A program made the translations under genes and the position numbers. 64,000 nt of DNA from Caulobacteraceae bacterium (GTDB lineage Bacteria > Pseudomonadota > Alphaproteobacteria > Caulobacterales > Caulobacteraceae): NCBI GenBank assembly GCA_030446805.1, contig JAUJMO010000001.1:1011241-1075240 (forward strand). The letters are read 5' to 3'. Below are positions 59,798 through 64,000 of the stretch, piece by piece (within the stretch, counting starts at the first letter, position 1; every line of letters starts with the position of its first letter). Under the pieces are notes generated by a model. It did no database searches. It was not told the DNA's origin and saw only the letters and a program-made list of their open reading frames with translations.

Positions 59798-60571
59798 TCA
59801 GCTGGCCAGCTTGGCCATGTCCTCGTCGCTGACGTCGAGGCTGGAATAGACGCTCTGCACGTCGTCCTCGTCGTCCAACGCGTCGATCAGCTTCAGCACG
59901 GAGGCCGCGGTGTCCGCCGGGACGGGCGTGGGGACCTTGGGCCGCCAGACGATGCCCGTGGACTTGGGATCGCCAAGGATGGGGACCAGCGCCTCAACCA
60001 CGGAATTCAGGTCCTCGAATGCGGTGTAGATGGTGTGCCCAGGAGCGGGCTCGTAGATGTCGGGCTTGACCAGATCGGACTCGACGTCCTCGGCGCCGGC
60101 CTCGATCGCGGCCTCCATCACCGCGTCTTCGCTGCCGGCCTCGGCGGGATAGATGATCTGGCCCACCCGCTCCCACAGGAAGCTCACTGAACCTGTCTCG
60201 CCCAGCGCTCCACCGTGCTTGGTGAACAGGCTGCGCACATTGGAGGCGGCGCGGTTGCGGTTGTCGGTCAGCACCTCCACGATGAGACCCACCCCGCCGG
60301 GGCCGAAGCCTTCGTAGCGGATCTCTTCCATGGTGTCGGCCTCGCCGCCCGCGCCCTTCTTGATGGCGCGGTCGATGTTGTCCTTGGGCATGGACTCGGC
60401 CTTGGCGTTGTTCACCGCCAGGCGCAGGCGCGGGTTCATGGCCGGGTCGGGCATGCCCGACTTCGCCGCCACGGTGATGTCACGGCTGAGCTTGGAGAAC
60501 AGCTTGGAGCGCTGCGCATCGGCGCGCCCCTTTTTGTGCATGATGTTCTTGAACTTGGAATGGCCGGCCAT
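59798..60571 (-). CDS. YebC/PmpR family protein
   Basis: The 257-residue protein has the full family pattern: [20 protein letters not shown] at the N-terminus, [26 protein letters not shown] and the central [20 protein letters not shown]. YebC-type proteins act on transcription or, as shown for several members, rescue ribosomes stalled at proline-rich sequences. It converges with the M20 gene. It normally neighbours ruvC in related genomes, which it nearly does here. Confidence 0.94.
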
Positions 60572-60689: not shown

Positions 60690-60932
60690 ATGAACACTGA
60701 AGGAGTGGTCCATCCGGACGAGGAGCCCACGCAGCCCATCGTGAAGTGGTTTCCGCCGGGCGGCATGGCCAGGACGGCCCCCGCGGCCGCAGCGGGGATG
60801 GCGGCGCTGGTTCTGGGCGCCTTGGTGTACGCCGGCTTCTCACTGACGCGGGCGGCGCTGAACAGGGGGTTCGGACGGCCCCTGACGTTGGACAGGCTGG
60901 TGGTGCGCAAGCTCACCGTATTGGAGGACTAG
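60690..60932 (+). CDS. Small single-span membrane protein
   Basis: The 80-residue protein has a polar N-terminus (MNTEGVVHPDEEP), one hydrophobic segment (AAAAGMAALVLGALVYAGFSL) and a basic/aliphatic C-terminus. GGAGA lies five bases before the ATG at 60690. No family is recognised. It is the last gene before the decayed IS element and belongs to the yebC side of the boundary. Confidence 0.55.
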   Translation: MNTEGVVHPDEEPTQPIVKWFPPGGMARTAPAAAAGMAALVLGALVYAGFSLTRAALNRGFGRPLTLDRLVVRKLTVLED

Positions 60933-61007
60933 GTCCAATCGGGGATCGGCGCGTCTGAGTGCTGAATCAATACGCTTCGGGTCAGGTGATTCGGAGCAGG
61001 CGGTTGC

Positions 61008-61310
61008 CGATGAAGCGCTAAGAGCTGAGCGAGGCGCAGCGGTCTCGCATTGCGCCCATGCCGCCCGGCAAGGCCGGCGATCCCGGCCGGACGGGCGCGC
61101 GCAACCGATTGTGCGTCAACGGGGTTCTCTGGGGTTGCGCTCGCGCGCGCACTGGCGCGACCTGCCCGAGCGCTACGGTAGGTGGATGAGCGTCCACAAA
61201 CGCTTCACGCCCTGGGCCAAGGCCGACGCTTGGGAGCGGGTGTTTCAGGCGCTCACCGAGGATCGGGACAACCAGTATCGCGCGCCCTGTTATGTCGTCG
61301 CGCCTGGCCG
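61008..61310 (+). pseudogene. IS5-family transposase, decayed N-terminal part
   Basis: Read in two frames the sequence gives ELSEAQRSRIAPMPPGKAG, then RTGARNRLCVNGVLWG, then (after a frameshift near 61120-61130) RAHWRDLPERYGRWMSVHKR and WERVFQALTEDRDNQY. This is the N-terminal third of IS5-family transposases (DUF4096-type). The fourth codon is TAA where these proteins usually have Tyr. Similarity ends at about 61284, just before the luxI stop. The DDE residues and the rest are missing here. The C-terminal part of an IS5-type transposase lies beyond the lux genes at 63530-63665, on the same strand. Confidence 0.85.
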
Positions 61311-61311
61311 C

Positions 61312-62109
61312 TCACGATAACAGCGCACTACGTACCTTCTGCAGCAAAGCGTCGGCCTCCGCGTCCGACATTGTAGCGCTGAGCTCGCCGAGCCGGCCCA
61401 TCAGCTTCCCCAGGATCCGGAGATCTCCCTGACCGAGGACGGCCGCCGCTTTCGCCAGCACCTCAAGCTCATGTGGCTCGGCATTCTCGGCCTCCGTCGG
61501 ACCGATCTCGAGCAGCAGCGGCGCTGAAAGACCGTGGCGTTCCATAAGACTCTCGACCGAACGCGCGCTGGGCCGGACGTCGAACGCGATCGCGTCCCCG
61601 TGAGCGTAGCTCATCGGCAGGCCCAGAAAGCGGTGCTCCCACCCCGTGCGGATCACGGTGTTCATCAGGTACACGTCGGTGACCGCCACAACGCGGCGGG
61701 CTCCCCTTTGCAGAGCTGAGGCCACCACAGCCGTCCGCAGCTCCATGTTCCGTCTCAATCCCTCCCGCCCGCGATGACGCGGAGCAGCGAAGTAGCGGCT
61801 GAGTTCCCAGACGCCAGGCGCCTTCACCTCCGAAGCGGGTTCGCTGAGCAGCTCCGGGAAGTGGTCCGCCAGCATGCTCTTGTCGCCTGTCGGGCGGATG
61901 CGGGCGCTCAGCCCGATACTCCCGTCCGTCTCCAGACCGAACAGGTAGACGGCACGGTCGTCGTCCAGATCGTCGAACTCGCCGCCGTCGCGTGTGGTTC
62001 TATCGGACCAGCCGCGTTCCTCAATGAAGAACGCCTTGCGCAGCTGGTGCATCTCTTCGAGCTGGCGTGCGTACAGGCCCCGGTTCTCGAGCTTGACTAC
62101 GTGGATCAT
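61312..62109 (-). CDS. Acyl-homoserine lactone synthase, LuxI family
   Basis: LuxI enzymes make acyl-homoserine lactone signals from SAM and acyl-ACP or acyl-CoA. The 265-residue protein keeps all the conserved residues: Arg24 and Phe28 (LRKAFFIEE), Trp34 (RGW), Asp46 and Asp49 (GEFDDLDDD), Arg70 (ARIRPT), Glu102 and Arg105 (WELSRY). It is about 50 residues longer than typical LuxI proteins, with a helical C-terminal extension containing LEVLAKAAAVLGQGDLRILG. A perfect lux box lies 53 bases upstream. The stop falls at the edge of the IS5 remnant. The acyl chain cannot be predicted. Confidence 0.9.
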   Translation of the reverse strand: MIHVVKLENRGLYARQLEEMHQLRKAFFIEERGWSDRTTRDGGEFDDLDDDRAVYLFGLETDGSIGLSARIRPTGDKSMLADHFPELLSEPASEVKAPGVWELSRYFAAPRHRGREGLRRNMELRTAVVASALQRGARRVVAVTDVYLMNTVIRTGWEHRFLGLPMSYAHGDAIAFDVRPSARSVESLMERHGLSAPLLLEIGPTEAENAEPHELEVLAKAAAVLGQGDLRILGKLMGRLGELSATMSDAEADALLQKVRSALLS

Positions 62110-62162
62110 GGCGGCGACTTCCCCAGAATTGCCGCATCGTGGCCGCCAAGCGGGCCGAGGCT

Positions 62163-62182
62163 ATCTGGGTGACTACCCAGAT
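62163..62182 (-). promoter_or_regulatory. lux box (perfect 20-bp palindrome) upstream of luxI
   Basis: ATCTGGGT, a 4-base spacer and ACCCAGAT form a perfect 20-bp inverted repeat, the size of a lux/tra-box-type LuxR operator. It lies between the luxR stop (62190) and the luxI start (62109), ending 53 bases before luxI. Confidence 0.8.
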
Positions 62183-62189
62183 TGACGGG

Positions 62190-62927
62190 TCAGTAGGCGT
62201 CCTCACGGGGAAGCCAGCCGCGCCGAAAAAGCTCGTAGATCATCTGCGGCCGGTTGCGAACGCCGAGACGACGCTTGATCCGCTCGATGTGCATGTTCAC
62301 CGTGCTCTCGCTGATGCCGAGTATCACGCTGGCGTCCCAATCCGACTTGCCTCGGGCGATCCAGTGCACGCATTCCGTCTCGCGTTTCGTGAGCTTTCCC
62401 GGCCTGGGTTCGTCGTCCTCGATCTCGGCCAGCGGCAGGCCGAGAGTCGCGTACAGCATCGCCATGGCGTGCAGGGTGGTTTTGGCCTTCGGGTCGAAGC
62501 CGGGCTCCTCCGAGATCATCAGCACGGAGGCGAGTTCTCCCGCAGCGCCATGGATGGGCACCAACAAGCCTTCACGTGCGCCGGTTGATTGAGCTTCTGC
62601 GAACACCCGGCGCGCTTCCGGCGTCTCCGCCTGACATTGCACCTCCGACCACGCGAAGGGGCGGGTGTTGCTGAAGATGCCGGCCATGGCAGGGTCGTGA
62701 GCGCCGAAACCCTGCTCGATGTAGTAGGCGGCCCATTGTTCCACGCCACGCCCAAAGGCCAGTCGAGGTACGATGGGCTGCCCATGCTCGGCCAGCTTCA
62801 CGTAAGAATAGCGGCTGAACCCGTGATGTCGGATTGCGGCTTCGAAGCGGTCCTGAAATGCGCTCAGGTCGGAGGCTGCCGGACCGGCCTGGAGGAACTC
62901 CAGAGCTGCAGCCTGGGCTGGGGTCAT
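62190..62927 (-). CDS. LuxR-family quorum-sensing transcriptional regulator
   Basis: The 245-residue protein has an autoinducer-binding domain with the ligand-contact residues at Trp65, Tyr69, Asp78 and Trp93 (WAAYYIEQGFGAHDP and FAWSEV), and a C-terminal LuxR HTH (LTKRETECVHWIARGKSDWD ... SESTVNMHIERIKRRLGV). These match TraR/LuxR receptors for acyl-homoserine lactones. It overlaps the XRE gene upstream (ATGA) and precedes luxI by 80 bases, which contain the lux box. It is the obvious cognate receptor for the adjacent LuxI. Confidence 0.93.
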   Translation of the reverse strand: MTPAQAAALEFLQAGPAASDLSAFQDRFEAAIRHHGFSRYSYVKLAEHGQPIVPRLAFGRGVEQWAAYYIEQGFGAHDPAMAGIFSNTRPFAWSEVQCQAETPEARRVFAEAQSTGAREGLLVPIHGAAGELASVLMISEEPGFDPKAKTTLHAMAMLYATLGLPLAEIEDDEPRPGKLTKRETECVHWIARGKSDWDASVILGISESTVNMHIERIKRRLGVRNRPQMIYELFRRGWLPREDAY

Positions 62928-63340
62928 GCCGGGGGGGCCTCGCCCCTGTCGTCGACCATCGCCTTCACGAGAGAAAGCACGCGGCGGCGAAGCTGGGGCG
63001 AGTCGATCTGCGAAAAGGCCGTCAGCAGCGGCCTGGCCCCATCCAGCATCAACAACCGGGCCGGGCCGTCGGCCGTGATGTCAACGGCTTCCCGGTCGGT
63101 TTCGAGGTCCCCCAGCAGATCGGCGACTCGGCAATTGAGCGCCCGCGCGATCTGAACAGCTCGGGATATGCTGACCCGATTTGTGCCCCGCTCATACTTT
63201 TGCACCTGCTGAAAGGTGACGCTGGCGCGCCGGGCCAATTCGTCCTGCGACATGCCGAGTTCTCTTCGGCGCAATCGAATGCGGGCGCCGAATTCCACAT
63301 CGGCGTGTTCCGCGGAGCGGGTGGAGTGTGACGAGGTCAT
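62924..63340 (-). CDS. XRE-family HTH regulator
   Basis: The 138-residue protein has a Cro/CI HTH at about residues 17-72: FGARIRLRRRELGMSQDELA, then VTFQQVQKYERGTNRVSISR and ALNCRVADLLG. It resembles a class of alphaproteobacterial XRE regulators with a C-terminal helical tail. Its stop overlaps the luxR start (ATGA), so it is co-translated with luxR and likely co-transcribed with luxI. It might set expression of the quorum-sensing operon, which is inference. Confidence 0.88.
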   Translation of the reverse strand: MTSSHSTRSAEHADVEFGARIRLRRRELGMSQDELARRASVTFQQVQKYERGTNRVSISRAVQIARALNCRVADLLGDLETDREAVDITADGPARLLMLDGARPLLTAFSQIDSPQLRRRVLSLVKAMVDDRGEAPPA

Positions 63341-63529
63341 GCCACCAAGAGTGGAGCAGACGCTCCCGACCGTCCAGACAAAAGCGCGGCGATCCGCAGG
63401 GCGTCGTCGAGCCGCGACGCGCAGCGCGCGCGCAGGAGCGTTTCCACAAGCTTGGTCGGACGTGCAAGATTCGATTGCTACTCGGGGAGCTAGCGCTTGA
63501 GCGGAACCGTCTCGCGGCGCTCAGCGTCC

Positions 63530-63665
63530 TGAACAAACACCGCAACGCGTCGAGCGCTGCTTCATCAAACTTCCGCCGCTTCGAGGCCCGCTACGACCGC
63601 CCGGCGATCCAATTCCTCGCCTTCGCCCACATCGCAGCCGCAATGATCTGGATGCCCTGGATGTC
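63530..63665 (+). pseudogene. IS5-family transposase, decayed C-terminal part
   Basis: With two single-base frameshifts the sequence reads LNKHRN, VERCFIKL, then FRRFEARYDRPAIQFLAFAH and IAAAMIWM. This is the conserved C-terminal end of IS5-family transposases (VERxFxKLKxFRRxATRYDK...FLAFxHxAAxxxW). The stretch from 63341 to about 63530 shows no further reliable match. It lies on the same strand as the N-terminal remnant at 61008-61310, with the XRE-luxR-luxI operon between. Its end touches the stop codon of the YmdB-like gene. Confidence 0.75.
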
Positions 63666-63673
63666 GATCAGAC

Positions 63674-64000
63674 CTAGGCTTCCGGCATCGCTGGGCGGAG
63701 CCGGCCGCCGACGCGGATGGGCTCAACGCGACGCGCCAGGCCCGTGCGGTCGTCCGTCTCCACAAACACGCCGCACACCGTCGCCGGCCCGCTCGCGGGC
63801 TCCATGCGGGCCTGATTGATCCGGGTGGTGAAGCGTCGCAGCGGCTCCTCCTTCTTCATGCCGATCACGCTGTCGTAGTCGGCGCAAGCGCCCGCGTCGG
63901 TCTGATAGGCCGTCCCGCCTGGCAGAATCTGGGCGTCGGCGGTCGGCACGTGCGTGTGAGTCCCCACCACCAGCGACGCCCGGCCGTCGCAGAAGTGGCC
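63674..64000 (-). CDS. TIGR00282 (YmdB-like) metallophosphoesterase, 3' part
   Basis: The gene runs off the end of the window; 108 C-terminal residues are present. They contain the family's VVGTHTHVPTADAQILPGGT metal-binding His segment, then DYDSVIGMKKEEPLRRF. YmdB-like enzymes hydrolyse 2',3'-cyclic nucleotides and dimerise. In related alphaproteobacteria this gene is usually next to yebC; here the IS/lux region separates them. The start lies beyond base 64000. Confidence 0.9.
   Translation of the reverse strand, partial: GHFCDGRASLVVGTHTHVPTADAQILPGGTAYQTDAGACADYDSVIGMKKEEPLRRFTTRINQARMEPASGPATVCGVFVETDDRTGLARRVEPIRVGGRLRPAMPEA

Follow-up and report, generated by a model that had tools for sequence, protein, structure and literature searches.

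A putative quorum-sensing operon between the decayed ends of an IS5-family insertion sequence in a Caulobacteraceae genus

The locus and its genes

The window, meaning here the whole stretch of DNA that was analysed, is 64 kb of a Caulobacteraceae genome (contig C1:1011241-1075240 of genome G000), and it was compared with the second species of the same genus (G001, GenBank contig JAHWJX010000004, a MAG, 0711_bin8). Within the window an operon of three intact genes runs from 63340 to 61312 on the minus strand. Its first gene encodes an XRE/HTH_3 regulator of 138 aa (62924-63340, minus strand, Pfam HTH_3 8.5e-15), the reading frame of which overlaps by 4 bp that of luxR (62190-62927, minus strand), encoding a predicted AHL-responsive regulator of 245 aa (Pfam Autoind_bind 9.9e-25, GerE 5e-16), and the last is luxI (61312-62109, minus strand), encoding a predicted acyl-homoserine-lactone synthase of 265 aa (Pfam Autoind_synth 1.2e-16). 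The region upstream of the operon (63341-63406) is conserved and is probably its promoter/operator, and beyond it lies fast-diverging DNA (63407-63532, 19% divergence, without an IS match) that reaches to an insertion sequence (IS) remnant on the right. On the left, a spacer of 32 bp (61280-61311) separates the stop codon of luxI from a second remnant.

The genes outside the remnants are yebC (59798-60571, minus strand, NCBIfam PRK00110 7.8e-99) and a ymdB-like TIGR00282 phosphodiesterase gene, the 3' part of which is in the window (63674-64000, minus strand, Pfam YmdB 1.1e-34, TIGR00282 6.6e-25). A reading of this DNA made earlier from the sequence alone, referred to below as the sequence-only reading, held that the usual neighbourhood of these two genes is broken here, and indeed they are 3.1 kb apart compared with 105-1277 bp in those relatives where the distance was measured. 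The same reading made no mention of a further small gene between the two, ORF80 (60690-60932, plus strand), which is convergent with ymdB and encodes a small membrane-type protein of 80 aa. ORF80 has no Pfam or NCBIfam match, yet it has homologues in other genera, with a hydrophobic middle and a conserved C-terminus (VRKLTVLE), and it is 96% identical to its G001 homologue with a dN/dS of 0.06. Its TAG stop falls within the CTAG target of the IS that is described below.

The insertion sequence remnants

Both flanks of the operon were searched with nhmmer and a profile HMM of 857 positions, built from 10 complete copies of the same IS in relatives. The left remnant (60931-61279, plus strand) corresponds to positions 2-359 of the model, that is the 5' end and the first ~92 codons of the transposase, now pseudogenised, with an E-value of 1.6e-62 in a 3-kb search and 1.9e-61 in the 64-kb window. 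The right remnant (63533-63677, plus strand) corresponds to positions 704-857, the last ~45 codons and the 3' end (4.5e-29 and 4.8e-28 respectively). The two matches are far beyond chance and are the only ones in the window, and likewise the only matches to this IS type across the genome, with the same being true of G001. Together with the Pfam matches of the three genes they bear out the proposal that an XRE-luxR-luxI operon lies between two plus-strand remnants of an IS5-family transposase. The positions proposed for the remnants, 61008-61310 and 63530-63665, are right in strand and need adjustment at the edges, as the true ends of the element lie further out and the inner edge of the left remnant is ~30 bp shorter. 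A match to PF13340 (DUF4096) above the cut-off is also found within the left remnant (C1:1072375-1072485).

As the profile maps the two halves to 2-359 and 704-857, the outer ends of the IS are complete and its central 344 bp (~codons 93-208) are gone. The missing centre was sought in the DNA next to the operon (61280-61330 and 63341-63532) with the profile at maximum sensitivity and no match was obtained, nor did the sensitive profile detect an inner IS end or any duplicated IS sequence. At the outer ends, the inverted ends and target duplication that the sequence-only reading had asked to be looked for are present, with a CTAG at 60929-60932 on the left (duplicated TA at 60930-60931) and at 63674-63677 on the right (duplicated TA at 63675-63676), the latter giving ymdB its TAG stop. 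The CTAG junction is common to nearly all complete copies of the IS and TA is the likely duplication.

The remnants have decayed by stops and frameshifts, as had been suggested: the left has an early stop (MKR*ELSEAQ) and a frameshift near codon 43, and the right has a deletion of 8-9 bp. The left remnant of G001 ends at the same model position, 359, and its right remnant has decayed further and begins only at position 783.

In its length, the structure of its ends, its 2-bp duplication and its split frame the element fits the description of the IS427 group of the IS5 family (PMC3281130). Complete copies are 855 bp, within the ~830-865 bp and with the terminal inverted repeats of 13-21 bp that are typical of the group, and, when the printed ends are read against the consensus TAGGTCCAATCGACATTCAGG, 2 of 21 positions differ in the left end of G001 and 3 of 21 in the right end in the window. 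The 2-bp duplication, TA in CTAG, is found at both ends in the window, in G001 and in most complete copies. The transposase of two overlapping frames joined by a frameshift is seen in the complete copy of G013; the part concerned is missing in the window. Both halves fall in the same IS subgroup, so that remnants of clearly different IS groups, which would have spoken against the sequence-only reading, are not what is found.

The insertion site in relatives

ORF80 on the plus strand ends GAC-TAG and ymdB on the minus strand ends GCC-TAG, thus it can be inferred from these flanks that a single CTAG would serve both stop codons if the block were absent. Relatives often have a small ORF between yebC and ymdB, and in two of them (G031 and G009) an ORF80-like gene is convergent on ymdB across a short gap, without IS and without lux genes. 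The comparison of the yebC-ymdB junction that the sequence-only reading had called for therefore shows, in sister genera, the site without either component. In G001 the same block is present in the same position with the same left breakpoint, and a scan of the collection for further lux blocks bounded by ends of this IS returned the G001 contig only, so that the block is found at one locus in two species.

In a further relative, G003, a reversed copy of the same IS occupies the CTAG at the ymdB stop (L028 280-305, G003:C6) and is an independent insertion. Gene ends in CTAG may thus be recurrent targets of this IS. The solitary copy in G003 makes plausible a lux-free first step, in which a plain IS was first inserted at the CTAG between ORF80 and ymdB and the lux genes then recombined in situ into the middle of the element, with the deletion of 344 bp. 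Neither element ends nor a duplication could be recognised where the lux block meets the two remnants, and no congener is known with the IS and without the lux genes; this history is considered unlikely.

Selection on the lux genes and decay of the IS

Comparison of G000 with G001 gives dN/dS values of 0.195 for luxI, 0.23 for luxR and 0.36 for xre, with yebC, at 0.04, under stronger constraint than the lux genes. In a simple count test the nonsynonymous share was below the neutral expectation for luxI (p 6.5e-06), luxR (1.3e-04) and XRE (0.006), and for the three pooled (1e-10). There are no indels between the two species in the lux genes, compared with 8 events in the 349 bp of the left IS remnant, and the right remnant is 35% different. 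The 66 bp before xre contain 1 substitution whilst the next 126 bp contain 24. The lux genes are evolving under purifying selection while the IS decays, and from this contrast in indels and substitutions it follows that the operon has been kept along with its presumed promoter, and the IS has not.

Predicted signalling function

The synthase carries the catalytic-type residues R24, F28, W34, D46, D49 and R70, it is paired with an AHL-binding regulator with conserved domains, and a perfect 20-bp dyad, ATCTGGGTGACTACCCAGAT (62163-62182), lies 54 bp upstream of luxI as a candidate lux box. The arms of the dyad are identical in G001 and the spacer differs, and most relatives in the family have a dyad of their own at the corresponding position before luxI. 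Given the residues of LuxI and the conserved dyad, AHL synthesis, binding by LuxR and positive feedback on luxI are likely: LuxI would make an AHL, and LuxR with AHL bound would act at 62163-62182 to activate luxI. The XRE regulator may control the operon from the conserved region 63341-63406, although this role is a guess taken from its position as the first gene.

A second lux-box candidate in the genome (C1:401592, 1 mismatch, conserved in G001) was rejected, as it falls in codons (IWVATLI) of a membrane-protein ORF, and hence no regulon is proposed.

Origin of the lux genes

The lowest GC3 values of the 37 genes in the window are those of luxR and luxI (0.771 and 0.796, with a mean of 0.868 and s.d. 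of 0.034), although a low GC3 can alternatively reflect weak expression. LuxI is patchy in the family, being present in 81 of 390 genomes. The nearest proteins, at ~40% identity, are those of XRE-luxR-luxI operons at other loci in other genera, and no IS turned up beside these when IS proteins served as queries; the same XRE gene precedes luxR in G373, G327, G006, G375, G398 and G342. The sampled genera that are nearest to the host (g4, g8 and g9; by YebC, G004, G025, G008 and G009, at ~80% identity) have no LuxI match. In a LuxI tree G000 and G001 form a deep branch within the clade of the family. A literature search on LuxI in Caulobacter gave, among the results listed, no report of this XRE-luxR-luxI module. 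In another relative, G031, a LuxI frame runs for ~553 aa into an extra C-terminal region (L047, G031:C5:1941-2528), possibly a LuxI fusion protein.

The simplest reading of these data is import from an unsampled member of the family. Differential loss from an ancestor that had the operon is a less probable alternative, for which the patchy distribution of LuxI leaves some room. Another alternative has an old, vertically inherited lux operon with the IS pieces arriving as unrelated later insertions on either side, a history that would suit a module that is widespread in the family and a LuxI that sits inside the family's clade. It is nevertheless very improbable, as the remnants complement one another within one IS type, run in the same direction and have outer duplications that match, other genera have an empty junction, the nearest sampled genera are without a LuxI match and the composition of the lux genes is atypical.

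The sequence-only reading had described acquired signalling now fixed by IS decay. Acquisition is favoured by the outer ends with their duplication, the empty sites, the GC3 values and the nearest genera without LuxI, and fixation by IS decay is a reasonable view, on the grounds that the genome and its congener hold remnants only and no complete copy of the IS type. Relatives with the same lux genes and no IS at either side would also have told against that reading; relatives with the lux module but free of the IS do exist, but their modules are at other loci and are only ~40% identical, and it follows only that the IS is not intrinsic to the module.

One insertion sequence or two

The best explanation of the locus, given a probability of about 0.72, is that of an acquired XRE-luxR-luxI operon, bounded by IS sequence and maintained by selection, which is a passenger between outer ends of the IS427 type. 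The 2.74-kb block (60932-63674) would have been inserted at the CTAG in which ORF80 and ymdB both terminated, in a common ancestor of the two species that have been sequenced, with lux genes that probably came from outside the lineage.

How the operon came to lie between the ends is a separate question. Slightly preferred, because no IS sequence is present twice, is a history in which the operon replaced the transposase centre of one IS copy to give a derivative like a mobile insertion cassette; it is given slightly less than an even chance. Any single-copy history needs the deletion of 344 bp of the IS centre, which counts against it. Solo copies of the IS with a similar missing centre occur in G196 (389|676), G297 (293|600) and G128 (254|757).

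A credible, if less favoured, alternative is that two direct IS copies moved the lux genes as a unit and their inner parts were later deleted. Such an eroded composite would account for the direct orientation of both remnants and for the duplicated target outside them, deletion in the right half is ongoing, as the G001 remnant that begins at model position 783 indicates, and among 20 complete reference copies the best match differs between the halves (L066 for the left, L025 for the right), a difference too weakly supported to decide between one copy and two. Against this, the sensitive profile shows no inner end and no duplicated IS sequence, and two large deletions would be required, each stopping close to the operon. 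A composite transposon is recognised by two IS copies, complete or at least recognisable, flanking the cargo and here there are complementary halves only, without inner ends, but a composite stripped of both its inner parts would be indistinguishable from a single element.

With regard to the slightly preferred cassette-like derivative, there is indeed a passenger with cognate IS ends at its two sides and no functional transposase, but mobilisation in trans with multiple genomic locations is not seen, the block being at one locus in two species. The block is probably immobile now, as no intact transposase of this IS type was found in the genome, and with two genomes only, both with the same site, there is no direct evidence of it ever having moved as a unit.

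Wider activity of the IS group

MITE-like derivatives of the IS appear to be common in Caulobacteraceae, with blocks of ~130-300 bp and inverted CTAGG..ATCGACATTCA ends observed in nine genomes (G147, G104, G215, G241, G245, G249, G255, G256 and G102; L150-L153). In G253 a block of 3.9 kb (L148 204-4106, G253:C167:57103-61005), which has inverted ends of this type lying in CTAG sites, carries a TonB-dependent receptor gene and may be a second element with a passenger; 71 congeners yielded no empty site for it. It can be speculated, doubtful as it is, that the IS427-type group makes internally deleted cassettes in Caulobacteraceae that are moved in trans and carry passenger operons into CTAG stop codons with the neighbouring genes left intact.

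The block gives a base-pair view of how so small an element can bring in a signalling operon that is then retained: both neighbours regain their stop codons from the CTAG target, and the transposase dies while the passenger stays under selection. It is an informative and well-delimited case of IS-bounded quorum sensing, and comparison of the two species that have it helps in judging whether quorum-sensing operons carried by mobile DNA are kept for the sake of their function.

Comparison with known systems

The IS427 group of the IS5 family includes IS1248, ISPaes1 and ISPam4 of Paracoccus (PMC3281130, Table 2). The element resembles these in its ~855 bp, ends of ~18-20 bp, 2-bp duplication, split-frame transposase and DUF4096, and differs in that the window copy is pseudogenised, lacks its central 344 bp and is interrupted by 2.25 kb of other DNA.

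Quorum-sensing genes associated with a transposable element have a precedent in the spnIR system of Serratia marcescens SS-1, which is transposon-borne according to the account given in a later paper (Wei et al. 2006, cited in PMC6433178). There, as here, a LuxI/LuxR pair is associated with a transposable element, but the element type and the host are different and there is evidence of movement, whereas the present IS is inert and occupies a site that is fixed in the genus. The element of SS-1 is reportedly Tn3-like. Mobile insertion cassettes and transporter ISs are likewise known element classes (PMC3129680), and with these and the spnIR precedent, IS-bounded quorum sensing is a known type of event. 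The block, a candidate cassette, is like the mobile insertion cassettes in having IS ends that flank passenger genes with the transposase missing, and unlike them in its single known site and in the transposase remnants that are still present.

The operon itself is most like the XRE-luxR-luxI modules of other Caulobacteraceae (G373, G327, G006 and others), with which it shares gene order, a C-terminally extended LuxI of ~270 aa and a dyad before luxI. It is set apart from them by a protein identity of ~40%, by its locus, and by the IS ends at its sides, none having been detected beside the others.
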